Part shown: in pieces, positions 3 to 17,960 of the stretch
Layout: each line of letters begins with the position of its first letter
Numbering within the stretch: the stretch's first letter is position 1
IMG/VR virus record: IMGVR_UViG_3300009158_000224
Span: 1-22,185 of that record
Origin: a virus
Length of the DNA: 22,185 nt
Reading direction: 5' to 3' (one strand)
Made by a program: the position numbers and the translations under genes
Notes under the pieces: generated by a model
What the model was told of the DNA's origin: nothing
The model's database searches: none
The model's input: only the letters and a program-made list of their open reading frames with translations

Positions 3-1190
3 GGCGACTTTGTGGCCAATCGGTTGGCACTGAACGCGCTGATGCGTTCAGTGATCGGCGGGATTGCCCTGGACGCTGATGGCGAGGACGCCATGTTTCT
101 GACCCGTTCGGCCGCCGGGGTCGATTCGATCATCGAAAGACTCAAGGATGAGGTGCAGGGGGCAAGCCGGATCCCCCATACCAAGCTTTGGGGCAGCTCC
201 CCATCGGGGTTGGGGGCCACTGGGCAGTCCGAGAAGTCGGATTTTGCGCAGGAGGTGCACATGCTCCAGGAGGACCACCTGGATCGGGCGCTGCGCCAGT
301 ACTACAAAACCCTGGCCGCCTGCTCAACCGATCGGGCAGCAATGGAATTGCCGGAGGATTGGCAGATTGATTTTCACAGCACCATCACCCTTTCCGACCT
401 GGAAGAGGCCGAGCTACGGGGCAAGGTGGCCTCGGCCGACAGCCAGTACCTCAACGCAGGTGTGTTGCAGCCCAACGAAGTGGCCGTGGCGCGTTTTGGC
501 GGGGCCAAGTTCTCGATCGAAACCACCCTGCTGGACCGCGAGAAGAATGGCGCGATCAAACAGGATCCCCAAAACCTGCCACCACCCACCTTTGGTGGTG
601 ACCTGGGCACTCTGCCCAATGAGGCCATTGGCCAGGGCCAGGGCCAGGGCCAGCAGCTGTCCCCCCGGGGGGACAGCGGGGACGAACGCGACGACGGTTG
701 CTGCAGCCCCTGCGACGCCGCCACCGCCAAAGGGAAGCCCGCCACCTGCAACGACGGCGCCGTCGACGGCCAGCAGCAGGCCGATGACCAGCTGGAGGGC
801 CAGCAAGCGGCGGCCGCCGAGGCCATCGCCAGGGCCATCGCGCAGGACGAGCGCCGCAAGGGCTGCGGCCGGCGGCCCGGGGTACGGGCGGACGGCAGCC
901 GGGTGACCGGTCGGCGGGTGGTGGCCGGCGTGCCAGTTGACGTCCGCAGCGATGGCAGCGCCACCCTGGTCGGACCCTACGGGCAGGCCCTGGCTCTGGA
1001 AGCGGCAGTGGGCTTTGACTCCACCGGGCTATGGGAGGTGCTGAGCCCAGCCGGCCAATGGACCGCCGTGGTGGGAGTGAAAGACCAGGCCATGGTGGTG
1101 GCCGCCGCCGGCCCGGGTGCCCGGGTGCGCCGCCTCGATGGCACTGACATGGTGGCGATGGGGGTCCGATGCGACAGCTATGAGCCATGA
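3..1190 (+). CDS. Phage portal protein, DUF1073/HI1409 family, 5'-truncated by window edge
   Basis: C-terminal part of a portal protein, which forms the dodecameric ring at the capsid vertex through which DNA is packaged. The frame is open back to base 3, so the GTG at 12 is unlikely to be the true start; the N-terminal half lies outside the window. The signature segment at about 178-235 reads TKLWGSSPSGLGATGQSE, matching the conserved 'G-SP-GLNATGE' stretch of DUF1073 portals. It is followed by the usual helical region and a 'LNAGVLQPNEVA' segment near 450-485. Beyond about base 585 there is a long extension unusual for the family: a GQGQGQ linker (625-655), a Cys-rich patch (GCCSPC, about 690-710) and a basic/Gly/Val-rich tail. 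It overlaps the next gene by ATGA. The family assignment is confident; the extension's function is unknown. Confidence 0.85.
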   Translation, partial: GDFVANRLALNALMRSVIGGIALDADGEDAMFLTRSAAGVDSIIERLKDEVQGASRIPHTKLWGSSPSGLGATGQSEKSDFAQEVHMLQEDHLDRALRQYYKTLAACSTDRAAMELPEDWQIDFHSTITLSDLEEAELRGKVASADSQYLNAGVLQPNEVAVARFGGAKFSIETTLLDREKNGAIKQDPQNLPPPTFGGDLGTLPNEAIGQGQGQGQQLSPRGDSGDERDDGCCSPCDAATAKGKPATCNDGAVDGQQQADDQLEGQQAAAAEAIARAIAQDERRKGCGRRPGVRADGSRVTGRRVVAGVPVDVRSDGSATLVGPYGQALALEAAVGFDSTGLWEVLSPAGQWTAVVGVKDQAMVVAAAGPGARVRRLDGTDMVAMGVRCDSYEP

Positions 1191-2617
1191 GCATTGACCG
1201 TCGGCTGGAGCTCCAGCAGCGGCTAAGCGACGAACTGCGGGGCCTGGAGGATGAAGCGATCGGGCGGATCGGTCGCGTCTTCGAGGGGGCCCTGCGGAAA
1301 ACGGTCGCACGCATTTTTGCGCAGCTCAATGGCATCGCCGCCCAACCCGCCTATGACCCAAAGACCACCCCAGGGGCGTTTTTGGGATCCACCCCCGAGG
1401 GGCAGGTATCCATCAATCCGGTTTTGAAGAATCAAGCCCAGCTGATCCTGCAGGGGCAGCTGCTCCAAGATCTCCGCCAGATCATCGACTCGATGCAGCT
1501 CTCCCCCCGGCAGATGGAGCGGCTGGAGAGCGAACTGAAAGCCCTGTTCGATCGGGCCCAGGGACTGGGCAGCGAATATGCCCTCCAGATCACCGGGGCA
1601 GAACTCGAGCCCTCCCTGGCGGCGCTCTCCCCTGAGGGGCAGATCGAGCGGCTGCCAGGCCAGGGCCAGGGCCAGGGGCCGGGCGACGGCCCGCCGCTGT
1701 TGCCCGGCCAGCAGGGCCCCGCACCGATTGACATGCCATCGGCGCCAGATCGGGGGTACCAGGGTGGGCAACGGCTGAGCCGGCTCTTCGATCTCAGCGG
1801 TGCGGTGATCGCGGCGGAACGCGATTTCAAGAGCCTGTCCGAGAACTACGCCAAAGAGCGTGATGCGGCCTCCGATGAGCACGTCAGGGCGTCAAAGGGT
1901 TACTACGCCAAGTGGTGGGCTGAATGGGGGGAGTCGGTGTCGTTTGAGACGGCGCGCCAGATGGCCCAGGGCCCCGATCCCCGGGCGCTGAAGGCCAAGC
2001 TGCGGGAGAGAATCCCAACCATCAACGAGGCCTTCAAAAACCGGGCGGAAACGATCGCCCGCACCGAAACCTTGATGGCATCTGGCGAGGCCCAAGAGCG
2101 GATCTACCGCCGGCTGCGGGTTGGCTTTGTGCAGTACCTGGCGACGCTTGATGACCGCACCTGCGAGTTCTGTGCGCCCCGATCCGGTTGCATCTACTGG
2201 ATTGGTGGGGTGAAAACCCCGATCCATCCGAACTGCCGCTGCGGCGAGAGCCCGATTACCTTGGAATCGCTGGTGATCCAGAACAGCATGGCGAAATCGC
2301 CGGAGCAGACCTGGGAGGCCGAGTTCCAGGCCCATGCGGCGGCCACCATGGCCTATTTCCGGGCGGCCGCCGGCGCCGATGCGGTGCCCCGGCCGGTCGG
2401 TGGGCCCGGGGACATGCGGGGCAAGTCTGCTGACTACCCCCTGATGGAGCGGAAAGGCCTGCCGCAAAGCGTGGCGAGGAACGCCTTGAGCCCAGATGAC
2501 CCACTGAACCAGGCCGCGCGCGATTGGCCAGCTGGTGACCCGGTGTGGTGCCCGCGGCGAGGATGGCTGGACCAACAGGCCAGGGCGGCCTACGAGGCGA
2601 TTTTGAGATCAGTTTGA
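1187..2617 (+). CDS. Phage head morphogenesis protein, Mu gpF / SPP1 gp7-like (minor head protein)
   Basis: A 476-aa minor capsid protein, translationally coupled to the portal by an ATGA overlap; portal followed by gpF-like protein is the standard head-gene order. The diagnostic region is near residues 290-360. It contains 'IARTETLMASGEAQ', then 'LDDRTCEFCAPRSG' (C326, C329) and 'HPNCRC' (H347, C350, C352), the conserved Cys/His cluster of the Phage_Mu_F family (PF04233), probably metal-binding. Residues about 160-190 form a Gly/Gln/Pro linker (PGQGQGQGPGDGPP) resembling the linker in the portal, separating a helical N-terminal domain from the Mu-F core. About 110 residues follow the core. 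Such proteins sit inside the head near the portal and may be ejected with DNA. The next gene converges 22 bp away. Confidence 0.88.
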   Translation: MSIDRRLELQQRLSDELRGLEDEAIGRIGRVFEGALRKTVARIFAQLNGIAAQPAYDPKTTPGAFLGSTPEGQVSINPVLKNQAQLILQGQLLQDLRQIIDSMQLSPRQMERLESELKALFDRAQGLGSEYALQITGAELEPSLAALSPEGQIERLPGQGQGQGPGDGPPLLPGQQGPAPIDMPSAPDRGYQGGQRLSRLFDLSGAVIAAERDFKSLSENYAKERDAASDEHVRASKGYYAKWWAEWGESVSFETARQMAQGPDPRALKAKLRERIPTINEAFKNRAETIARTETLMASGEAQERIYRRLRVGFVQYLATLDDRTCEFCAPRSGCIYWIGGVKTPIHPNCRCGESPITLESLVIQNSMAKSPEQTWEAEFQAHAAATMAYFRAAAGADAVPRPVGGPGDMRGKSADYPLMERKGLPQSVARNALSPDDPLNQAARDWPAGDPVWCPRRGWLDQQARAAYEAILRSV

Positions 2618-2618
2618 T

Positions 2619-2651
2619 CAAGTACCCGTCAAGTGCCCGTCAAATGCCCTT
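2619..2651. repeat. Three imperfect 11-bp tandem repeats at a gene junction
   Basis: The units CAAGTACCCGT (2619-2629), CAAGTGCCCGT (2630-2640) and CAAATGCCCTT (2641-2651) lie exactly between the converging stop codons of the head morphogenesis gene and the methyltransferase, overlapping the last codons of the latter. The position suggests a recombination or deletion scar where the reverse-strand cassette joins the structural operon. Confidence 0.6.
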
Positions 2652-3194
2652 GTCTTCAAGGGCAGCTTGCAATGTTGGCTGCTGTTTTTGCCGCGTCTCC
2701 TCGTGTCCTGAGCTGTTGGCGACCGCAACGCACCACCATCGATCCCGCTGATGGCAAGCACCCACAGCCGCTGCCGGTATGCAAGCCCATTCCGCGTCAT
2801 ACCCTGCCTCGGCCAGCGATCCGAGAACGTCGTCCATTCCTCGGTAAGTGATCGCTGCGACGTTTTCCAAGACGATGTATCGCGGTTGTACCAGGCGAAT
2901 GACTCTGAGCAGCTCGTAGAACAGGCCCGATCGGCTGCCAGCCAGGCCGGCACCCTTTCCGGCTAGGCTGATGTCCTGGCAGGGGAATCCACCGCAAACA
3001 ATGTCAGCTGATCCGGGTTCTGGTTGGAAGGTGCAGATGTCATCGTGAATTGGGACGGTGGGCCAGTGTTTGGCAAGGATGCGCTGGCAAAACGGGTCGC
3101 ACTCCACAAACTGCACGGTTTGAATGCCACCCAGCCAGCGAGCAGCAAGGCTGAAGCCGCCGATGCCGCTGAAGGTGTCAATCATTCGCAACAT
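2640..3194 (-). CDS. DNA (cytosine-5-)methyltransferase, C-terminally truncated (no TRD, motifs IX/X)
   Basis: This 184-aa protein carries the catalytic N-terminal half of a C5 methyltransferase, which transfers methyl from SAM to cytosine in DNA. Visible motifs in order are motif I 'DTFSGIGGFSLA' (residues 6-17), motif II acidic E31-C-D33, motif IV 'GGFPCQDIS' with catalytic C72, motif VI 'ENV' (110-112) and motif VIII 'HQRDRWW' (148-154). It ends about 30 residues later, so the target-recognition domain and motifs IX-X are missing; full-length enzymes usually exceed 300 aa. The stop lies in the 11-bp tandem repeats. Start ATG 3194 is 18 nt after the LexA-like gene; ATG 3185 is an alternative. 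It may be an inactive remnant, or may need a partner supplying the rest. Methylase identity is confident; activity is not. Confidence 0.85.
   Translation of the reverse strand: MLRMIDTFSGIGGFSLAARWLGGIQTVQFVECDPFCQRILAKHWPTVPIHDDICTFQPEPGSADIVCGGFPCQDISLAGKGAGLAGSRSGLFYELLRVIRLVQPRYIVLENVAAITYRGMDDVLGSLAEAGYDAEWACIPAAAVGACHQRDRWWCVAVANSSGHEETRQKQQPTLQAALEDKGI
2645..2664. terminator. Hairpin between convergent genes, possible weak bidirectional terminator
   Basis: A perfect 8-bp inverted repeat, TGCCCTTG and CAAGGGCA, separated by TCTT, lies at the tail-to-tail junction of the morphogenesis gene and the methyltransferase. No run of T follows on either strand, so intrinsic termination is uncertain. 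It may simply form a 3' protective hairpin. Confidence 0.3.
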
Positions 3195-5215: not shown

Positions 5216-8077
5216 TTGACACCAAGAGAAACAACAGTGGATGTCAGGCAGGAAACAGCGTCGCTCGTTAAATCAATCATTGACGAGCTGATTCACGACA
5301 GCGTGCATCTGCTGACTCTCAATACATCTGTCGCCACTGGTGAAACTACTGGCACCTTTCGTGCTGGCCAATTGGTCTACAACTACAAAATTCAAGGCGA
5401 TAACGTTACTTATTCGCCCGTTAGTGACAATTCAGCTGGACGCGCTGACGCCAAGCGGGGCACAGCACGCAAAACGGTGCCCAGGGGGCATCCTGGATTC
5501 AGGCGGCTCGAAACCCGCATGGCGCGACTGGACGGTGCGACTGCCGCCATGGCGGCGATTGATCCGATCACGGCGCCACTGACGGCGGTGCTGGCCGCAT
5601 CGCTGCCTGGGGCAGCCGTTTTGAGCTGGGACCGGCAGCACGCCCCCCCGGGACAAAGCCTCACCGGGCGAGTGGCGGCATCTGGGCTGGTTTACCAGTT
5701 TCGCGTCGATGGCGAAGCCGTGCGGTTCCGCCCAGCCTGGGATGGCGAGACTGATGCAACCTGGGCGGCGAGGTCTGAAGGATTTCTGGCGGCCCGGGGC
5801 CACCGCCTCGATTTCCGTGACACCCGAACCAAAGGCAAGAGCGCCAGCAAGCGGCGGTGCACCACCGGCTATGGCTGCGGGGCCTCCTGCATCTCAGTGA
5901 ACAAGGAGTGCGTCATCAGGGCCGCCAGCGCCATCGGCAAGGAGCGGTTGCGGCGGCTGCAGGAGCTAGTCAGGCAGGGCGACCCAAATGCCGGGAAGGT
6001 GCAGGCGGCCGTGCAGGCAGGGCGCAATCAAAAGGCCAAAGGCCTGTTGGAGGGCCGGCAAGTGGAGCGGTTGCGCGCAATGCTGCAAGATCCGGCGGTT
6101 GCCCAGATGGTCCGCAGCGGCAAGGTGCCCGCAGCAACGGCCGCGGCGCCCGGCCCCGGCCTGGGGGGGGCCGGCCTGGGGGGCCCCGGCCCAGGGGGTC
6201 TGGCAGGGACCGTGGCGGTCGTGGCGCCGGACTCCATCGCGGTGGATCCCAAGCGCTTCCAGTTCAAGCTCAACTCATCTGCCAGCGGAGAGGTTGGCTC
6301 CCTTGCCGGCATCAAAAAATGGGACGACAACCTCGCCGGGGTGATCTCGGTGTGGCAGGACCCGGCCGATGGCAAGACCTATGTCGTGAACGGGCACAAC
6401 CGCCTCGCATTGGCCAAACGGATGGCGGCAGAGTCCGTGACGATCCGGTACCTCAAGGCCGCCAATGCCAACGAGGCCCGGGCGATCGGGGCCCTGCAGA
6501 ACATCGCCCAGGGCCAGGGCAGCGGCATCGATGCAGCGAAATTCTTCCGGGATTCCGGCATCACCGATCAGGCGGCCGTTGAACGCGCCGGCCTCCCCCT
6601 CCAATCCGGCAAGGCCGCCCAGGGCCTGGGGCTGGCCCGGCTGCCCGAGTCGATGTTCCGTGCGGTCATTGACAACGAGCTTTCAATCGCCCGTGGCGCG
6701 ATCATCGGCAATTCAGGGCTGAGCAAGGCCAAACAGGCCGAAATCGGCAAGCTGTTGCGGCAGCGCAAAAACATCTCCGATGGCACCCTGGCGGAGTACG
6801 TCGAAAACTTGGCCGTCAGCGAGGCCAGCAAGCAAGGGGCCCTTGACCTCTTCGGGGGGCAAGAAACGGTAGACAACGGCCTGGCCCGGGCGGAGCTTGC
6901 CAACAACCTGCGGCGCAAGCTGGCCCGGGAAAAATCGCTCTTTGCCACCGTCAGCAAAAGCCGCGCGGCCGAGGCCCTCCAGCAGAAGGCCGGCAACAAG
7001 ATCAACCAACGAGAAAGCGCCGGAGTTGCCGCCGAGGCCGATCAGGTGCTGAGGGTGTTCAAGGAGCTGAAGGACAAGGCCGGCCCGATCGCCACCGCCC
7101 TCAACAGCGCCGCCAACCGCATGATGAAGGGCGACCCGGCCGCCCTAGTGACGAAGGAGCTGGAGGAGCAGGTGATCGCCGCCATGCAGCTGGAGCTGGA
7201 ACGGGCCGGCTTGCGCAAACCGAAGCACATCGCCAACGAGGCACCCACGGCCAGCATGTTCGACAGCCTCATCAGCCGGATCATCCGCCTGGATGCTCGC
7301 GCCCGAACCACCCCGGGCCAATTGCCCTTGATGGCCGGTGGTGCCCAACTCGATCTGGGCATGCAGCGTGGCAACACCACCAGCCAGGCGGGCCGCAAGC
7401 CAGCGGCGGTAGGCCGGGCCGCCAAGGCCGCGGCGACCGGCAATAGCAAAGCCGGCAAGCCCTGCGGGGATGGTCACATCTCTGCAGCTCTCACCTGCCA
7501 CAAAGGAGGTGCAGGGGCCGGCAATGGGGCCATGGTCTACGCCGGTGAAAGTGATGACGGCAGCCGGTTTGTTGATGCCAAGCCGAACGCCGCGCCGTTG
7601 TTCAAGATCCCCCCTCGCCAGGAAACACCAGCAAGCCCAACGGCCAGCAAAACCCCGCTGGCCGCTGCCATGCGCCAGGCAATCCAGCAGATGAAGGCGG
7701 CAGACGTTCGGCAGATGTCGATGCTGGCCAACCAGCTGTTCGAATCCGAATGGAGCCTGGAGCGCAAAGGCAAATGGAAGGGAATGACCAAAGCTGCCGC
7801 CCAACAGGCCTACATACAAGAGTTCGGCCAACTGCAGGAAGCACAAGCCCAGCGACAGCAGCAGAGTCAGCAAACTCAAACGGCAGGCAGTGGCACGCCG
7901 ATGAAGCTGTCCCAGCGCATGCGACAGCTGACTGAGACGATGAAAGCGTCTGACGAGCGGATGGCAAAGTTGGGGAAACAGATCTTTGAGCTGCGCCGCA
8001 GGACGTTGGACCTGGATGATCCCTCGCCAGGTGCAATGCCAGGGGCCACTCGACGGGCACTGCCAAAGGGGAAATAA
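5216..8077 (+). CDS. Large polyvalent-type protein with DdrB/ParB-like domain (953 aa)
   Basis: Start is TTG 5216 with AAGG 4 nt upstream; GTG 5237 is an alternative. Residues ~42-70 and ~131-178 hold two related copies of a small module ('LVYNYKIQGDNV' and 'LVYQFRVDGEAV'). A Cys motif C-x5-C-x3-C-x6-C follows at C215, C221, C225, C232 (TGYGCGASC core), then a Gly/Pro linker (~residues 305-335). Residues ~340-450 match the ParB/DdrB-like domain of polyvalent proteins: a DPKRFQFK-type start and VNGHNR (391-396), the ParB-type 'GH-R' signature. A helical region follows, then residues ~692-764, duplicated in the next protein. The C-terminus has a repeated ~25-aa helix (MKAADVRQM / MKASDERMA). 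Polyvalent proteins are thought to enter the host with phage DNA and counter host systems. Domain calls are good; whether it is a nuclease is unknown. Confidence 0.72.
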   Translation: MTPRETTVDVRQETASLVKSIIDELIHDSVHLLTLNTSVATGETTGTFRAGQLVYNYKIQGDNVTYSPVSDNSAGRADAKRGTARKTVPRGHPGFRRLETRMARLDGATAAMAAIDPITAPLTAVLAASLPGAAVLSWDRQHAPPGQSLTGRVAASGLVYQFRVDGEAVRFRPAWDGETDATWAARSEGFLAARGHRLDFRDTRTKGKSASKRRCTTGYGCGASCISVNKECVIRAASAIGKERLRRLQELVRQGDPNAGKVQAAVQAGRNQKAKGLLEGRQVERLRAMLQDPAVAQMVRSGKVPAATAAAPGPGLGGAGLGGPGPGGLAGTVAVVAPDSIAVDPKRFQFKLNSSASGEVGSLAGIKKWDDNLAGVISVWQDPADGKTYVVNGHNRLALAKRMAAESVTIRYLKAANANEARAIGALQNIAQGQGSGIDAAKFFRDSGITDQAAVERAGLPLQSGKAAQGLGLARLPESMFRAVIDNELSIARGAIIGNSGLSKAKQAEIGKLLRQRKNISDGTLAEYVENLAVSEASKQGALDLFGGQETVDNGLARAELANNLRRKLAREKSLFATVSKSRAAEALQQKAGNKINQRESAGVAAEADQVLRVFKELKDKAGPIATALNSAANRMMKGDPAALVTKELEEQVIAAMQLELERAGLRKPKHIANEAPTASMFDSLISRIIRLDARARTTPGQLPLMAGGAQLDLGMQRGNTTSQAGRKPAAVGRAAKAAATGNSKAGKPCGDGHISAALTCHKGGAGAGNGAMVYAGESDDGSRFVDAKPNAAPLFKIPPRQETPASPTASKTPLAAAMRQAIQQMKAADVRQMSMLANQLFESEWSLERKGKWKGMTKAAAQQAYIQEFGQLQEAQAQRQQQSQQTQTAGSGTPMKLSQRMRQLTETMKASDERMAKLGKQIFELRRRTLDLDDPSPGAMPGATRRALPKGK
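7289..7507 (+). repeat. Duplicated ~220-bp coding module, copy A
   Basis: It encodes about 73 residues running from LDARAR through PGQL, GRKPAAVGRAAKAAAT and AGKPCGDGHIS to the C-x10-C-H-K-G end. Copy B is at 8141-8362. DNA identity is highest in the second half, where 7385-7470 and 8250-8335 are nearly the same. Confidence 0.85.
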
Positions 8078-8080
8078 GCA

Positions 8081-10288
8081 ATGTCAACCGACGGCCGCCT
8101 GGCGCTGCTCCAAACCCGACTTGATGCCCTGGCCGCCCGGCTTGATGCCCGTGCCCGTGCCCGATCGGCCCCCGGCCAGCTGGATCTGCTCACCGGTGGC
8201 GGAGCGCAAGCAGAACTCCCCCTGGGCGGCACCACCGGTCAAGGGGGCCGCAAGCCATCAGCGGTAGGCCGGGCCGCCAAGGCCGCGGCGACCGCCAACA
8301 GCAAAGCCGGCAAGCCCTGCGGGGAGTCCCACATCTCGGCGGCCAAGCAGTGCCGCAAAGGGGAGACAGGCGAAAGCCAGGAAGGCCAGGAAGCTCCAGC
8401 TGACAAGCCGGCAGCAGGGCGGAAGGGAGGACGCCCAACAGCACCTGCCGACCCCCGGGAGGGAACCACCGGAGCGGTTGAGTCTGGTGACTATGAATTC
8501 GCCCGAAAATCCGAGGTCCCGAACGCCGGGGAAGACCTGGCCCTATCGGCCCGCCATCGGCGAAACATGTTCTCGGGGTTGGCGGCGGAGGAAGCCGCCG
8601 GCACCGCCGAAAAGAACCTCACCCGCGACAACCTGCTCAAGGCCACACCCCATGACCTGATCACCGGCATGACCCCGGCCAACAGCTTGAGCAGCCTGCA
8701 GAGTTACCTCACGCTCCAGGCGTTCCCGGCGCGGCCGTACAGCGAGAAGGAACTGGCGGGTTACCAGCGGGCAATGGAACGGCAGGCGCGGCCAGGGATG
8801 CAGTCCATGGCTGTTTCTCCGGAAGGCCTGCGGAAGCAATATCACGATGCTTTTCAGCAGCTCCATGGGCTGGTTCATGCGCTACAAAAACATGCCGATC
8901 CTAATGCCAATCGTTTAGTCATTCTAAAATGGATTAACGATAAGGTTCGAGAGTTACGGCAGCAAACAGGCGACACGTCGTCTTATGCAATCGGAACAGC
9001 AAAAGACCCATACAATCCTGTAGCCAACAGTCTGATTGATTTTTCGCGGCGCATTGGCCGCCGGGGGACTACCTCCGTCCCTGGGAAGATGGAAGATTTC
9101 TCCCGTCGGCTCAAGGCCGCCATGGGCAACGACTTTGGGTCGGCTAAAACCACCTTGGAAAAGGCGAGGGAAATTGCGACCCGGATCATGGAGGGCAGCA
9201 GCGTCAACGAGGCCTTCGGGACCGTCGGCGCCAATGGCAAGCGGCGCTTTAATCCGGCGGATCTCTACGTGGCCCCGGCCAATCGCCAAGGGGGCCGCAA
9301 CGTCGGTGGCTCGACGATTGAGCAGGGCACCGATTTCATTCTCCAGGGTTCCGGGTTCCGAGGTCTGCAGTTTGGCAACAGCGTTAGCGATGACGAGCGC
9401 AAGCACCACCTGAAGAAGGCGGCCGAGGCCCTAGCCGACCTGGCCGATGTGACCGGCCTGCCTGATGAAGCCATGGGCTTGAAGGGTTCTCTGGGCCTGG
9501 CCATTGGCGCCAGAGGGCGAGGTGCTGCACTGGCTCACTTCGAGCCAAAGCTCAAGGTGATCAACCTCACTCGCAAACGGGGCATCGGCACCCTCTCCCA
9601 CGAATGGGGCCACGCTTTGGACAACTACCTGGGGCTGAAGGCCGGGGTGGCGGCGAGCAGCGCCCCCAATAGCGACAGAATCCACCCGGACCACGTTTTC
9701 CTCACCAACTCAGGCAAACCGTGGGAGAAGGATCCCCAAAACCCATCCCCCGTGATCGACGCGATGAAGGCCGTGAAAGAGGCCCATGTCACATCGGGCT
9801 TCATGGATCAAGTGGATAAGGAGTCCAGGGGCCTGAAAAGGGCCATGGTTTTCAATGAGGACTACTGGCGTTCGCGGCCAGAGATGTTCGCTCGATCATT
9901 TGAAGCCCACATTGACCGCAAGCTGCAGGCCCTTGGCCGGGCGAACACCTATCTGACGCAGACCCCCGACTCTTTGCTATGGCCGACTGCTGAGCAGTCC
10001 GAAGCAATGGCGCCAGCCTTTGATCGGCTGATGGCCGCCGTGCGCGCAGAGCACTTTGCCAACGCACCAAAGCGTAATGATGCAAGGGGTGTCCGCATTG
10101 ATCGTTTCATGGCCGCCTTGGCACGCAACACGCCTCAGAAGCCGAGAAAGCAGCCAGGGCAAACTGAACCCGAGCAAAAATCCGAATCTCCCGCCACCAA
10201 AGCCCCGATCAACTGGGACAACGTCGCCAGCGAAGTGAAGACCATGCTGGAGCTGGACCCCAAGGATCCAGAAGACGGCACCGATTAG
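8081..10288 (+). CDS. LPD1-type polyvalent protein with HEWGH metallopeptidase-like motif (735 aa)
   Basis: Start ATG 8081 lies 3 nt after the previous stop with AAGGGG upstream. Residues 1-20 are a short helical start; 21-94 are the module shared with the preceding protein; 95-150 a polar linker. Residues ~425-520 match the large polyvalent-protein-associated domain LPD1: 'FRGLQFGNSVSDDER', 'KKAAEALADLADVTGLP', 'LGLAIGARG', 'LAHFEPKLKVINLTRKRG', then HEWGH (H507, E508, H511), the HExxH zinc-peptidase signature. E608 in 'EMFARSFEAH' is a candidate third ligand. Proteins with this domain are mobile-element or phage products expected to act early in a new host. A stretch around 8870-9020 is visibly AT-richer than its surroundings. 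Protease activity is inferred, not shown. It ends 4 bp into the convergent XRE gene. Confidence 0.8.
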   Translation: MSTDGRLALLQTRLDALAARLDARARARSAPGQLDLLTGGGAQAELPLGGTTGQGGRKPSAVGRAAKAAATANSKAGKPCGESHISAAKQCRKGETGESQEGQEAPADKPAAGRKGGRPTAPADPREGTTGAVESGDYEFARKSEVPNAGEDLALSARHRRNMFSGLAAEEAAGTAEKNLTRDNLLKATPHDLITGMTPANSLSSLQSYLTLQAFPARPYSEKELAGYQRAMERQARPGMQSMAVSPEGLRKQYHDAFQQLHGLVHALQKHADPNANRLVILKWINDKVRELRQQTGDTSSYAIGTAKDPYNPVANSLIDFSRRIGRRGTTSVPGKMEDFSRRLKAAMGNDFGSAKTTLEKAREIATRIMEGSSVNEAFGTVGANGKRRFNPADLYVAPANRQGGRNVGGSTIEQGTDFILQGSGFRGLQFGNSVSDDERKHHLKKAAEALADLADVTGLPDEAMGLKGSLGLAIGARGRGAALAHFEPKLKVINLTRKRGIGTLSHEWGHALDNYLGLKAGVAASSAPNSDRIHPDHVFLTNSGKPWEKDPQNPSPVIDAMKAVKEAHVTSGFMDQVDKESRGLKRAMVFNEDYWRSRPEMFARSFEAHIDRKLQALGRANTYLTQTPDSLLWPTAEQSEAMAPAFDRLMAAVRAEHFANAPKRNDARGVRIDRFMAALARNTPQKPRKQPGQTEPEQKSESPATKAPINWDNVASEVKTMLELDPKDPEDGTD
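8141..8362 (+). repeat. Duplicated ~220-bp coding module, copy B
   Basis: The matching copy of 7289-7507, here near the N-terminus of the 735-aa protein (residues ~21-94). The same blocks occur in the same order: LDARAR, PGQLDLL, GRKPSAVGRAAKAAAT, AGKPCGESHISAA, C-R-K-G. Direct orientation, about 850 bp apart, so recombination between copies would fuse the two genes. Confidence 0.85.
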
Positions 10289-10584
10289 AGGGCCAGCAGG
10301 GCATCGGCCGATACCTGCAGCACCTGGCAGATCACCCTGATCTGCGCCGGGGATGCCGAGGCCCTGCCCAGCTCAAGTTTGGCGATCCAGGGCTGGCCGA
10401 CACCGGCGCATTCAGCCAGCTGGGCCTGGGTGAGGCCCCGCCGGTGGCGGGCGGTTCGGATGCGGCCGCCCATCTCCCGCCGGACGTACGGGGCAGGAGG
10501 GACCACAAATGGGCGGTCCTCAAACATGCCGATGCGGAATAAAACACGATTCAGGCTAAGGAAACCCGCAGTTTGGTATCTCAT
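10285..10584 (-). CDS. XRE/Cro-CI family transcriptional regulator
   Basis: The last ~60 residues form a canonical HTH_3 domain: 'IRTARHRRGLTQAQLAECAGVGQPWIAKLELGR' pattern, ending 'VICQVLQVSADALLAL'. The DNA-recognition helix is GVGQPWIAKLE. The start is uncertain. ATG 10584 gives 99 aa but leaves only 14 bp to the divergent gene and puts the start codon inside the inverted repeat at 10569-10592. ATG 10527 (80 aa) or ATG 10473 (62 aa, just the HTH) leave room for a promoter, and none has a clear Shine-Dalgarno. The longest frame is given as the outer bound. It is a lone reverse gene between plus-strand late genes, overlapping the LPD1 gene's stop by 4 bp, and is probably autoregulated. Confidence 0.85.
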   Translation of the reverse strand: MRYQTAGFLSLNRVLFRIGMFEDRPFVVPPAPYVRREMGGRIRTARHRRGLTQAQLAECAGVGQPWIAKLELGRASASPAQIRVICQVLQVSADALLAL

Positions 10585-10598: not shown

Positions 10599-11924
10599 GT
10601 GAGCGAGGAATGGAGGTTTGACCGTGGCGCCATTAGCCCCAACTGGGAGAAAACCCCAGATGGGTTCTTGCGTGTCCATGGAACCTTCAGCCGTACCGGT
10701 TGTCTCTCCTACAAGCGAGCAGACGGCAGCACCCAGGTCGAATATCGCCCGGAAGAAGAGGTTGCTCATCGCGATTCAATTCTTTCGCTTGGGGGATTGC
10801 CCGTCACCCATGAGCATCCCCCAGAGCTGCTGACCCCTGCCAACACTCGGCAGTATCAACGCGGATCGACTGGAACCGAAGTCGTATACGACAACGGTTT
10901 TGTCAAAGGCGTCGTCATCCTCACAGACGCCGAACTCATCGCCGCCGTTGAACGCGGCGATGCCAGGGAATTGTCGATTGGCTATCGCGTTCAGATTGAT
11001 CGCACACCAGGGGTTACGGCCACAGGTGAGCGATACGACGCGATCCAGCGACGCATCGTGGGAAACCATTTGGCGGTGACCAAGGAAGGCCGATCTGGGT
11101 CTGAGGTCCGGCTGCACATGGATTCCGCATTCTCGATCGATCCACCACCCTCTCCGCCATCACCCCCCCCCTTGGAGGCCCATGAAATGACCACGGCTGT
11201 TGCAGCACTGTCCAGCGCCACCGCGACCTTGGCCACCGCCCTGGCGGGCCAAAGCCGCTCGGATGGCAAGCAACGCTCCATGCTCATGCAGGAAATGGCG
11301 ATGGATATGGATCCTGAAGATGACCCCGACGGCGACCCCGAGGAAACCTCTGAAGAGGAGGGCATGGAACCCGAAGTTATGCGAAAGCCCAAAAAACCGA
11401 TGGCCAGGCGTCGCCGTAGTGACAGCGTGGTGTCACGGCAGGAATACGAGCGGGTGGTGAACGCGCTGGCTGACAGCGAGCGAGCACACCAGACGGATCT
11501 TGGCCGGATGGATGCGATCAGCGAACGGCTCGCCGAACTGGAAGCAGATCTGGACAAAAGGCTCGATTCCAGCGAGATCTGTCTCGATGCGCTGGTCACC
11601 GAAAAGCTGGAGCTGCTGGAGCGGGCCAATGAATTGGCCGGTGAACGAATTGACCATTCCGGCCTATCGACGCGACAACTGCAACTGGAAGCAATGCAGA
11701 AATCGGGTGTGGCGATCGAGCGCTTCGATAGTAAATCCGACGAATACGTGGCCGCGGCATTCGACACCTACTGCGATGCCAACACCAGCCCCAACCGCCT
11801 GGACCACTCATCCGCTCTGAAGCTCCTGCTTGGCAAAACTTCGGGCAATTCTGAACCCGATCCCCGCGAAATATTTAAACAACGGCTTGAGAATGTTTCT
11901 CGACAACCGTTGACCAGCAATTGA
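10599..11924 (+). CDS. DUF2213 prohead protease fused to scaffold protein (441 aa)
   Basis: GTG 10599 is the first start after an in-frame TAA at 10557. Residues ~1-185 match DUF2213, the maturation-protease-type protein of HI1409-portal phages: 'TPDGFLRVHGTFSRTG', 'EYRPEEEVAHRDSILSLGGLPVTHEHP', 'GFVKGVVILTDAELIAAV', 'ARELSIGYRVQID', 'RRIVGNHLAVTKEGRSG'. Residues ~186-441 look like a scaffold: an acidic low-complexity stretch (MDMDPEDDPDGDPEE), a basic patch (KKPMARRRR) and a long coiled coil (ISERLAELEADLDKRL onward). A protease-scaffold fusion expressed from one gene with an internal start is the lambda C/Nu3 arrangement, and a strong internal start is present at 11187. The protease cleaves scaffold during prohead maturation. 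A nine-C run (11163-11171) lies at the domain border. Confidence 0.82.
   Translation: MSEEWRFDRGAISPNWEKTPDGFLRVHGTFSRTGCLSYKRADGSTQVEYRPEEEVAHRDSILSLGGLPVTHEHPPELLTPANTRQYQRGSTGTEVVYDNGFVKGVVILTDAELIAAVERGDARELSIGYRVQIDRTPGVTATGERYDAIQRRIVGNHLAVTKEGRSGSEVRLHMDSAFSIDPPPSPPSPPPLEAHEMTTAVAALSSATATLATALAGQSRSDGKQRSMLMQEMAMDMDPEDDPDGDPEETSEEEGMEPEVMRKPKKPMARRRRSDSVVSRQEYERVVNALADSERAHQTDLGRMDAISERLAELEADLDKRLDSSEICLDALVTEKLELLERANELAGERIDHSGLSTRQLQLEAMQKSGVAIERFDSKSDEYVAAAFDTYCDANTSPNRLDHSSALKLLLGKTSGNSEPDPREIFKQRLENVSRQPLTSN
11174..11178 (+). promoter_or_regulatory. Internal Shine-Dalgarno GGAGG for the scaffold start
   Basis: GGAGG is followed after 8 nt by an in-frame ATG (11187). It is the best ribosome site in the window, yet sits inside the protease-scaffold gene, exactly at the domain boundary. 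Most true gene starts here have weaker sites or none. Confidence 0.6.
11187..11924 (+). CDS. Probable independently translated scaffold protein (nested in the DUF2213 gene)
   Basis: From ATG 11187 (codon 197 of the longer product) the same frame encodes 245 residues. They include 'MTTAVAALSSATATLATALAG', the acidic stretch, the basic patch and the coiled coil, without the protease part. The GGAGG 8 nt upstream supports separate translation, which would give excess free scaffold over protease-scaffold fusion, as for lambda Nu3 inside C. It is inferred from the start signal and domain layout. Confidence 0.5.
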   Translation: MTTAVAALSSATATLATALAGQSRSDGKQRSMLMQEMAMDMDPEDDPDGDPEETSEEEGMEPEVMRKPKKPMARRRRSDSVVSRQEYERVVNALADSERAHQTDLGRMDAISERLAELEADLDKRLDSSEICLDALVTEKLELLERANELAGERIDHSGLSTRQLQLEAMQKSGVAIERFDSKSDEYVAAAFDTYCDANTSPNRLDHSSALKLLLGKTSGNSEPDPREIFKQRLENVSRQPLTSN

Positions 11925-12550: not shown

Positions 12551-13483
12551 ATGGCCACTCGACTTGATGCCCAGGCAGCCCCTGGAGCCTTTCTGCAAAA
12601 GGAGCTGCAATACGTCCAAGCCAGGGCATACGTAAAGGAATACCCCGAGATTATCTATCCCAAAATCTTGCCGGTCAGTTTTGAGGTTCCGGAGGGTGCC
12701 GATACCCATAAGTACGATATTTGGGATCGTGTTGGCGAGGCGGACTTTATAAGCGACAGCGGTGATGATCTGCCCACTTCAGATGTTAAGCGAGGTGAGG
12801 TTATTAACGCAATCCGTCAGATTGGCACTTCGTTTAGGTACACCACTGATGAAATCCGCAAAGCGCAGTTTTCAGGAATTAGGCTTGATCAGCGCAAAGC
12901 TGATTCTGCGACCCAATCAATTGAAGAGCGGCACAATCGGTGTGCTCTCTTCGGGGCGCCTGGCACAGGTCTAAAAGGATTCTTCAACCATCCAGCCGTA
13001 GACAGGCTGGTGCTCACCGGCAGCGCCACCGACGGCTGGTTTGATGCCGCAAATATCACCCCTGACCAAATGGTTGCCATCCTCAATGAAGGCATTACCT
13101 ATCAAGGCACTGTTTCCAACCAAGTTGAGGCCGCTGACAGTCTTCTGATGCCCTATGTCGACTGGCGCAAGGTGACCACCACAAAGATGGGGACTAACGA
13201 TTCCAAGACCGTGCTGAACTTTTTCTTGGAATGTAACCCTCAAATCAAGCGGGTAATGCCAATCAACGAATTGGAACCGTCAAAATCCGGCGGCAACCTT
13301 ACTGCCAGGCGGATGGTTTTGTACAAATATTCCGAAGATAAAATAAAGTATATGATCTCCATGGCAACCAAGTTTTTACCTCCTCAGCCCATCAATCTGG
13401 CCTTTAAGGTCCCTGCCGAAAGCAAAAGCGCCGGTACACAAATCACATTCCCCAAGTCCGTGACCTACATCGATAAAGGCTGA
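12551..13483 (+). CDS. Major capsid protein, DUF2184 family
   Basis: This 310-aa protein is of the expected size for DUF2184 major capsid proteins (HK97-like fold) that accompany DUF1073 portals and DUF2213 proteases. Recognisable stretches are 'FLQKELQYVQARAYVKEYPE', 'ADTHKYDIWDRVGEADFISD' (E-loop region), 'IRQIGTSFRYTTDEIRKAQ', 'GLKGFFNHPAV' and 'LLMPYVDWRKVTT', with 'KFLPPQPINLAFKVPAESK' near the C-terminus. It assembles the icosahedral shell with scaffold and portal. The coding DNA is visibly less GC-rich than the head-completion genes after it. Start ATG 12551 has no Shine-Dalgarno; the leader is AC/T-rich. Confidence 0.85.
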   Translation: MATRLDAQAAPGAFLQKELQYVQARAYVKEYPEIIYPKILPVSFEVPEGADTHKYDIWDRVGEADFISDSGDDLPTSDVKRGEVINAIRQIGTSFRYTTDEIRKAQFSGIRLDQRKADSATQSIEERHNRCALFGAPGTGLKGFFNHPAVDRLVLTGSATDGWFDAANITPDQMVAILNEGITYQGTVSNQVEAADSLLMPYVDWRKVTTTKMGTNDSKTVLNFFLECNPQIKRVMPINELEPSKSGGNLTARRMVLYKYSEDKIKYMISMATKFLPPQPINLAFKVPAESKSAGTQITFPKSVTYIDKG

Positions 13484-16687: not shown

Positions 16688-16948
16688 ATGAATGACCCCG
16701 GCTTCTACCCCCTATTTGCGGCAGGGGACGGCTCCTGCCATTTGATCCACTGCAAAGTGACCTGCAACCGCATGGAGGTGGCCGTGATGATCATTGAGCC
16801 ATCGTTTGGCGATGAATGGGCCCAGGTAACATCGGAGGCGGACTACGGGGGCGATCGTTGCGCCGTAAAGCTGCCAGCAGCCTGCGTGAATGCAAGCGAA
16901 AGACTTAAGATCTATAACGCAAGCCTTCCCTACAAAACGCTCGAATGA
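16688..16948 (+). CDS. Small uncharacterised protein (86 aa)
   Basis: ATG 16688 is chosen because GGAG lies about 7 nt upstream and the longer open frame overlaps the tail-tube gene in unlikely sequence. It contains three Cys within 'GSCHLIHCKVTCNR' plus two more later, and a mixed alpha/beta-like remainder. No family is recognised. It sits between tail tube and tail chaperone, and overlaps the chaperone start by ATGA. Possibly a tail-assembly accessory protein. Confidence 0.55.
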   Translation: MNDPGFYPLFAAGDGSCHLIHCKVTCNRMEVAVMIIEPSFGDEWAQVTSEADYGGDRCAVKLPAACVNASERLKIYNASLPYKTLE

Positions 16949-17538
16949 CGACCAAGGCAAGGGATGCAGTCTTTGCATCATTTGAAGAACAATTTGTTGA
17001 ATTTGGCCCCATTCGATTGCGGCAATACAGCGATTTGCTAGGTGGAGAGATTGAGGAATATGACCGGCAGCAACGGGAATCGGCCCAGTTGATGCTGCAG
17101 GTGAGTGAGATTGCTCGAACCATTGGCGAGCACCCGAATTCTGGGATGGATGCCGATCAGGCTTTCGTCCTGCTGAGCAGCCCTCAAACCGATGCCGCTC
17201 TCAAGATCTCCGTGGCCATGAAATGGGGCCCCCCGGGCGGCTTCGGGTGCATTGCGCCCTTGTTGCCTGCAAAGGAGGAGCAGCACACCCGCATGATCAC
17301 CCTGGCGGTGCTTAGCCGCGGCTCCGCCCAGGTGAATGGCGAATGGCTGCCCCTGCGGGAAGGCTGGAGCGACGCAGACTCCCGGGCGCTGCCGGGCAAA
17401 CTCCGCACCGCCATCATCAATTTCATGGTGCAAGAAGGCAAGGGCGGGCCCCAGCCGGCAGAAGCGGGGGAGGCGGGGGGCGCCGGGGGGGGAAAGCCCC
17501 AGGGGGCGCCAGAAAGCAAACCATCCACGAACAAATAG
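16945..17538 (+). CDS. Tail assembly chaperone, short form (lambda gpG-like role)
   Basis: A 197-aa protein just before the frameshifted ORF and the tape-measure gene, the conserved position of tail assembly chaperones. The N-terminal ~150 residues are globular ('RLRQYSDLLGGEIEEYDRQQRE', 'ITLAVLSRGSAQVNGEWLPL'). The C-terminal 45 residues are a Gly/Pro/Ala linker (GEAGGAGGGKPQGAPE) in which the slippery site GGGAAAG lies (codons 183-184). Most ribosomes would end at TAG 17536-17538; a fraction shift -1 into the downstream ORF and make a 338-aa product. Both forms would coat the tape measure during tail assembly. Sequence similarity to a named family is not recognised; the assignment rests on position and the slippery site. 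Confidence 0.72.
   Translation: MTTKARDAVFASFEEQFVEFGPIRLRQYSDLLGGEIEEYDRQQRESAQLMLQVSEIARTIGEHPNSGMDADQAFVLLSSPQTDAALKISVAMKWGPPGGFGCIAPLLPAKEEQHTRMITLAVLSRGSAQVNGEWLPLREGWSDADSRALPGKLRTAIINFMVQEGKGGPQPAEAGEAGGAGGGKPQGAPESKPSTNK
17490..17496 (+). other. Programmed -1 ribosomal frameshift site GGGAAAG
   Basis: In the chaperone frame it reads G GGA AAG; slipping one base back re-pairs as GGG AAA. This heptamer is the one used in phage lambda G/GT. It lies within the overlap of the two frames, the second of which has no good start of its own. A run of eight G (17485-17492) leads into it. No clear downstream pseudoknot is seen. Confidence 0.8.
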
Positions 17539-17960
17539 CAAACCTACGGGCGTTTTTAGAGCGAAAACCAACCGATTGGAATAGCATCTACTTTCGCCTG
17601 GCTAGTTCTGATCTGCATGATCCCCGCTTTCATGCAGATCAATTCCATTTGCAACCAGTCGGCCACATCTTTAAGGCGGTCGAATGGCTCAATGAGCATG
17701 ATCAGCAGAAGGCCAACATCCTCTCCCACACCACGGCCCGGCTGGCGGCGATCGTCCTGGCGATTGGATCCCAGGGCACGGCCAAAAGCGACCACACCGA
17801 ATTTCTGCCCTTCTTGGCGCCACTCCCTGGTGGCAAGCCCAACATCAAGCCAGCTGTGATCGCCACCATTGAGGGGCTGATTCGCGCCAGGCGTCTGCCC
17901 ATGGCCATCGTCGCCCTGCTGGCGGAGGACATTCGCTCGACCATGAAACCGGCAGAATGA
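17496..17960 (+). CDS. Tail assembly chaperone frameshift extension (lambda T-like), expressed by -1 shift
   Basis: After the shift at 17490-17496, reading continues in the -1 frame from 17496 for 154 residues to TGA 17958-17960. The full product spans 16945-17960 (184 + 154 = 338 aa). The extension starts with a short basic linker and then 'IHEQIANLRAFLERKPTDWNSIYFRL', followed by a helical domain ending 'MAIVALLAEDIRSTMKPAE'. The frame has an ATG at 17343, but translation from there gives Arg/Gly-rich antisense-like residues until about 17510, so independent initiation is unlikely. In lambda the T part recruits the tape measure and major tail protein; the same role is inferred. The tape-measure gene follows by 19 nt. 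Confidence 0.75.
   Translation, partial: APGGARKQTIHEQIANLRAFLERKPTDWNSIYFRLASSDLHDPRFHADQFHLQPVGHIFKAVEWLNEHDQQKANILSHTTARLAAIVLAIGSQGTAKSDHTEFLPFLAPLPGGKPNIKPAVIATIEGLIRARRLPMAIVALLAEDIRSTMKPAE

Follow-up and report, generated by a model that had tools for sequence, protein, structure and literature searches.

A recurrent cysteine core with an R-x-D-[A/S] leader probably tags proteins for packaging into the heads of cyanobacterial phages

Why would two adjacent giant proteins, encoded among the head genes of a phage, share one short, basic, cysteine-containing module? The question arises in IMG/VR virus record IMGVR_UViG_3300009158_000224, of which we analysed positions 1 to 22,185 (22,185 nucleotides; hereafter the window). 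Its gene content includes a portal C-terminus, a MuF protein, the two proteins that share the module (P0001 and P0002), a DUF2213 maturation protease, the major capsid protein and tail genes. The original prediction took the module for a common tag on proteins delivered with phage DNA. Our comparisons indicate that tagged proteins of many cyanobacterial phages are probably packed into the particle for delivery to the host. The relevant features of the window are as follows.

1187-2617, plus strand: MuF-type protein of head morphogenesis, encoded upstream of P0001 and P0002.
5216-8077: P0001 open reading frame (ORF).
5501-5815, plus strand: alpha-beta4-alpha domain of P0001 in an AlphaFold2 model, N-terminal to the four-Cys tag.
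5804-5911, plus strand: third tag, of P0001, in the four-Cys form, with an HRLDF element, a basic linker and CTTGYGCGASCISVNKEC (residues 215-232); phrog_33618.
6206-7132, plus strand: ParB-like domain of P0001, matching the C-terminal part of the portal-family profile phrog_21 (2.6e-48).
7289-7510, plus strand: tag copy 1 (P0001 residues 692-765), with an RLDA element (7286-7297), a linker and the Cys core GKPCGDGHISAALTCHKGG (7454-7510).
7375-7488, plus strand: recently copied linker and core DNA of copy 1 (114 bp).
8081-10288: P0002 ORF.
8081-8362, plus strand: N-terminal leader of P0002 (residues 1-23, MSTDGRLALLQTRLDALAARLDA, with RLDA at residues 13 and 20) and tag copy 2.
About 8138-8362, plus strand: tag copy 2 (P0002 residues 20-94), with an APGQL linker and the Cys core GKPCGESHISAAKQCRKG (8309-8362).
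8230-8343, plus strand: recently copied linker and core DNA of copy 2 (114 bp).
9338-10051, plus strand: HExxH metallopeptidase-like (CLCA_X, partial match) and LPD1 region of P0002.
10599-11924, plus strand: DUF2213 head maturation protease with a scaffold-like C-terminus and RFD at residue 6.
12551-13483, plus strand: major capsid protein (PF09950), N-terminus MATRLDAQAAPGAFL, with an RLDA element as in the tags.

Searched against the record with tblastn, copy 1 matched copy 2 at 72% protein identity over 71 residues (E=1.5e-25) and gave no third match, and every sequence block named in the original prediction was found in both copies. The copies had been described as near-duplicates at both levels; this holds for the protein, whereas for DNA it holds over an inner 114 bp only (7375-7488 against 8230-8343; 87.7% identity, 143 bits, E=9e-39, compared with 24.7 bits for the best of 60 random segment pairs). 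Outside this stretch, the LDARAR, PGQL and C-KG blocks are kept at the protein level only, and recent copying in the window is confined to the linker and the start of the core. Written as a 53-bp DNA pattern, the core GKPCGxx[HFYL]Ix5CxKG matched exactly twice in the window and never in 100 shuffles. Across phages, the supposed 73-residue module is an R-x-D-[A/S] element, a variable linker and a Cys core of 14-18 residues. The basic linker, on which the idea of DNA binding was based, is its least conserved part.

Far from being confined to this pair, the module recurs widely near head genes. We obtained 155 non-redundant tags (<60% identity) from IMG/VR contigs and two isolates, with the core consensus CGxx[C/H/F/W]Ix5C and four residues invariant in a diverse set of 27 sequences. 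The DNA pattern for GKPCGxxxIx5CxKG matched 99 stretches in IMG/VR, and the four-Cys form, CxxGYxCGxxCIx5C, to which the P0001 core at 215-232 belongs, occurs in at least 119. The 2-Cys and four-Cys forms are homologous, being joined by a profile comparison in which the four-Cys tag of P0001 matches the H-form profile at E=5e-7. Of the tagged ORFs, 183 have a single tag, 64 have two, 18 three, 2 four and 1 five, at a median spacing of 529 residues. The core is matched by phrog_33618, whose PHROG label is 'function unknown'; Pfam gave no match over it in P0001, P0002 or 30 tagged proteins, and AlphaFold2 gave it no confident fold. A scan of 84,980 genomes of bacteria and archaea for the tight 2-Cys form alone, as GKPCGxx[HFYL]I, gave no match; the pattern was checked on the window. 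The bare 40-residue module found no match in phage records by tblastn; the isolates were identified with complete proteins or longer tag sequences as queries. An LDL-receptor class A module was considered and rejected: the only candidate, PDB 2m7p, scored E=0.2 and was partial relative to the six-Cys LDLa pattern.

Position ties the tags to head genes. Of 110 tags in 21 contigs, most are found between 3 and 12 kb upstream of the major capsid gene; 88 fall within 16 kb of it, compared with 64 expected from a uniform distribution, and the closest relatives have a few outliers at 18-39 kb. The whole genome of PaV-LD encodes the Cys core in exactly seven ORFs, all seven between portal and tape measure, and two of its tagged products are labelled in GenBank as 'virion structural protein' (ORF081) and 'minor virion protein' (ORF085). 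In the stretches of CL131 that were searched, three ORFs (gp044, gp047 and gp048) hold seven cores, and none of these lies outside the interval from capsid to tape measure.

The cargo is varied, comprising ParB, HExxH/LPD1, kinase, zeta-toxin, ADP-ribosyltransferase and NlpC/LRAT types. Pfam matches include the kinases APH, ABC1, Kdo and RIO, zeta toxin (1.7e-27 and 5.8e-26), ADP-ribosyltransferase (2.4e-5 in PaV-LD ORF079, weak in contig L151), M90-type metallopeptidase, LPD1 and LRAT/NlpC. Close relatives (L003-L011) encode additional tagged proteins at the same position between the MuF and protease genes: two kinase-like ones, of 387 and 458 residues, and one of 1567 residues with three tags. 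The profile phrog_16619 ('minor head protein') unites MuF, zeta-like and tagged ADP-ribosyltransferase regions. For P0001, a relative in P-SCSP1a lies a few genes past the tail tube gene, the usual place of T7-type internal virion proteins. A model of P0001 residues 96-335 had no significant match in a fold search of the PDB; against a viral structure library it had one match at E<0.001, G9BWI2, whose length (591 residues) equals that of PaV-LD ORF079, and the weaker matches include a Nodularia phage protein. A candidate polyprotein is CL131 gp048 (L113 7171-12606), whose 1811 residues contain five tags and a repeated GHSAGG motif of lipase-like type.

We consider it fairly likely that the module is a modular head-cargo tag serving a full scheme of packaging, cleavage and release. 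A short leader, at the N-terminus or between domains, would end in R-x-D-[A/S], followed by the linker and the compact Cys core. Tag bearers would be built into the prohead alongside capsid and scaffold proteins, whereupon the DUF2213 protease would cut R-x-D-[A/S] in the capsid N-terminus, in its own scaffold part and in the cargo. The freed enzymes, now beginning with the Cys core, would exit the particle with the DNA, and an ORF carrying two to five tags would encode a polyprotein from which several cargo units arise. This reading is least secure as to what the Cys core itself does. A bolder version is a real prospect that we hold only tentatively: two or more distinct head lineages of cyanophages may share a so far undescribed effector code in which the Cys core is the mark of virion cargo, irrespective of enzyme activity, with R-x-D-[A/S] cleavage in DUF2213 phages splitting giant multi-tag proteins into injected effectors. 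On this version, the tag by itself would be enough to predict injected effectors from sequence.

Evidence from virions comes from the cyanophage S-CBWM1. APH, ChoK and Rio2 kinases are reported in its particles by a published proteome (see PMC10665884), and its APH, ChoK and RIO kinases each encode a four-Cys core at the N-terminus. In APH the core, MSGKKCTRGKSCGSACV, lies at the annotated start; in ChoK and RIO it requires a start upstream of the annotated one. The S-CREM2 authors caution that such enzymes may be co-purified instead of packaged. The S-CBWM1 kinases have the core without an R-x-D leader; consequently, core and R-x-D are separable, and the core cannot depend on DUF2213 cleavage. 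The prediction of a common tag on head-carried proteins is thus well supported by unrelated cargo beside head genes and by these virion kinases, but its notion of a single unit gives way to two separable parts. Kinase homologues examined in S-CRM01, S-B68, S-N03 and S-TIM5 contain no Cys core, so the core is one of several ways. In three of these phages (S-CRM01, S-B68 and S-N03, which are T4-like cyanophages; L251-L253), the core-less kinase ORFs share another repeat with a neighbouring ORF, of the type GL-x-x-x-G-x-G-x-x-x-DP-x-TG-x-V. A number of N-termini there are similar to the capsid-targeting peptides of T4 (SFDQFLSE, LDSFIKE, FSSFIAE).

The leaderless S-CBWM1 core also fits a rival account, unlikely in our estimate yet deserving serious attention, in which the Cys core works in the host cell, by binding a partner, a metal or a membrane or by stabilising the effector, and virion entry is owed to other signals, such as the R-x-D leader or fusion with MuF or portal proteins. 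Many cores in one group of contigs (L022, L026, L037 and others) are consistent with this account: an Ala-rich hydrophobic stretch often follows the 2-Cys core within about 25 residues, as before a membrane segment. So are small proteins on two contigs (L015, L062), which have signal-like N-termini and end in CCKHCSKGKPCG(N/D)SCIARNK(T/E)CHKGPGCAC, a Cys-rich sequence related to the core but not in a head context. Yet the cargo has no common biochemistry (kinases, ADP-ribosyltransferases, zeta toxins, a peptidase, ParB), and the core nevertheless clusters in the head block.

Under the head-cargo tag reading, the R-x-D-[A/S] element is likely to be the maturation-protease site, judging by where it occurs. 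RxD[AS] lies within 45 residues upstream of the core in 101 of 149 tags (shuffle mean 7.6, maximum 19) and downstream in only 3 of 152. Any R-x-D precedes the core in 127 of 149, leaving about 15% of tags without one, and its frequency is about equal in internal (67/76) and N-terminal (60/73) tags. Of 14 non-redundant capsid proteins, 12 begin with the same element near the N-terminus under automatic start choice (shuffle mean 0.57), and 13 do once the annotated start of CL131 is used; the window has MATRLDA, PaV-LD TTRLDA and CL131 EIRMDA. R-x-D occurs at the N-terminus of all 22 DUF2213 proteases (22/22), and their C-terminal (scaffold) parts contain 93 R-x-D[AS] (shuffle mean 8.2, maximum 16). 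The window's own protease has six R-x-D-[A/S], compared with 0.52 expected from composition. PaV-LD has 23 R-x-D[AS] in its head block and one elsewhere (2.4 versus 0.056 per 1000 residues, 43 times denser), and CL131 has 17 versus 4. In the AlphaFold2 model, the predicted R-x-D of P0001 forms the border between the folded domain and the disordered linker.

In Synechococcus phage S-CBS4, the capsid N-terminus contains RMD and the protease five RxD[AS]; despite R-x-D in its head proteins, no Cys core was found in its first 31 kb. Nodularia phage 2AV2 differs in both head protease and capsid family; its capsid N-terminus lacks R-x-D, and none of 16 proteins checked has the Cys core. Several head-block proteins and the prohead peptidase of 2AV2 (L246) have LDF near the N-terminus (NLDFRR, TLDFHE, DLDFCE, TLDFPR), possibly a site of another protease.

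That R-x-D-[A/S] is instead an uncut docking motif for the scaffold or the capsid interior seems to us distinctly improbable. The capsid R-x-D is so N-terminal that cutting there would take off only about 5-12 residues, which suits docking, but the repeated R-x-D in the scaffold part of the protease fit self-processing. Further, a T1-like phage whose protease is of DUF2213 type has a capsid protein that migrates at 29.7 kDa compared with 34.7 predicted (PMC4070988); this protein has K-x-D-A at residues 4 and 24, and the protease N-terminus has RYDS. Among 50,697 phage records, 1738 contain similar proteases, T1-like coliphages included. Functionless recent tandem copying of a linker between adjacent genes, which the 88% DNA identity of the inner 114 bp and the diverged flanks would suit, is highly implausible and largely refuted, because the core, with its four invariant residues, and R-x-D recur on unrelated cargo in many contigs and isolates.

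Among known systems, the best reading is that the head-cargo tag works like the T4 capsid-targeting sequence (CTS) without being a member of that class, since sequence, motif and protease differ. The CTS of T4 internal proteins and Alt is removed by gp21, and CTS-type sequences occur on varied proteins (PMC9026906). Both systems place a short propeptide on unrelated cargo, N-terminal in T4, where Alt is an ADP-ribosyltransferase; in both, cargo, capsid and core or scaffold proteins have a common motif, here a putative protease site that also recurs in the protease itself. The T4 CTS sequence and the gp21-type site ending in Glu are absent here; in their place are R-x-D-[A/S] and a DUF2213 protease. 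The motif is followed by a Cys core, and some tags are internal to long proteins that carry several. A further parallel is SPN3US, in which gp245 cuts after AXE in ejection proteins (PMC10052503). There, a single prohead protease with a three-residue, acidic-ended motif serves capsid, portal and many ejected proteins, but motif and phage group differ and the accessible part of that paper describes no common Cys module.

As multidomain proteins with ParB, metallopeptidase (MPTase) or LPD domains amid head genes, P0001 (ParB-like) and P0002 (HExxH-like and LPD1) fit the class of polyvalent proteins, described in PMC5512222 as including DdrB-ParB, MPTase and LPD domains, MuF fusions and the processed and packaged DdrB of phage P1. 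Its available sections describe no common tag, and the word 'cysteine' is absent from the paper. The account of cyanophage virion-associated kinases (PMC10665884) likewise mentions no shared tag in the portion available, although its S-CBWM1 members carry the Cys core.

If the head-cargo tag reading is true, a short sequence signature shows which phage proteins are packed and injected, a largely open question beyond T4, P1 and a few models. DUF2213 maturation proteases would also gain a cleavage motif open to testing, and foreign proteins might be loaded into such heads by means of the tag.

Three smaller features of the window deserve mention. A short C5-methyltransferase-like ORF lies on the minus strand between the MuF gene and the tagged pair (2640-3194). 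Just upstream of the DUF2213 protease, on the opposite strand, is a small HTH-like regulator gene (10285-10584), and an HTH-like gene occupies the same spot in S-CBS4 (L242 13837-14127) and CL131 (L114 34126-34437). Ahead of the tape measure gene, an overlapping ORF pair in different frames (16945-17960) is arranged as in frameshifted tail chaperones.
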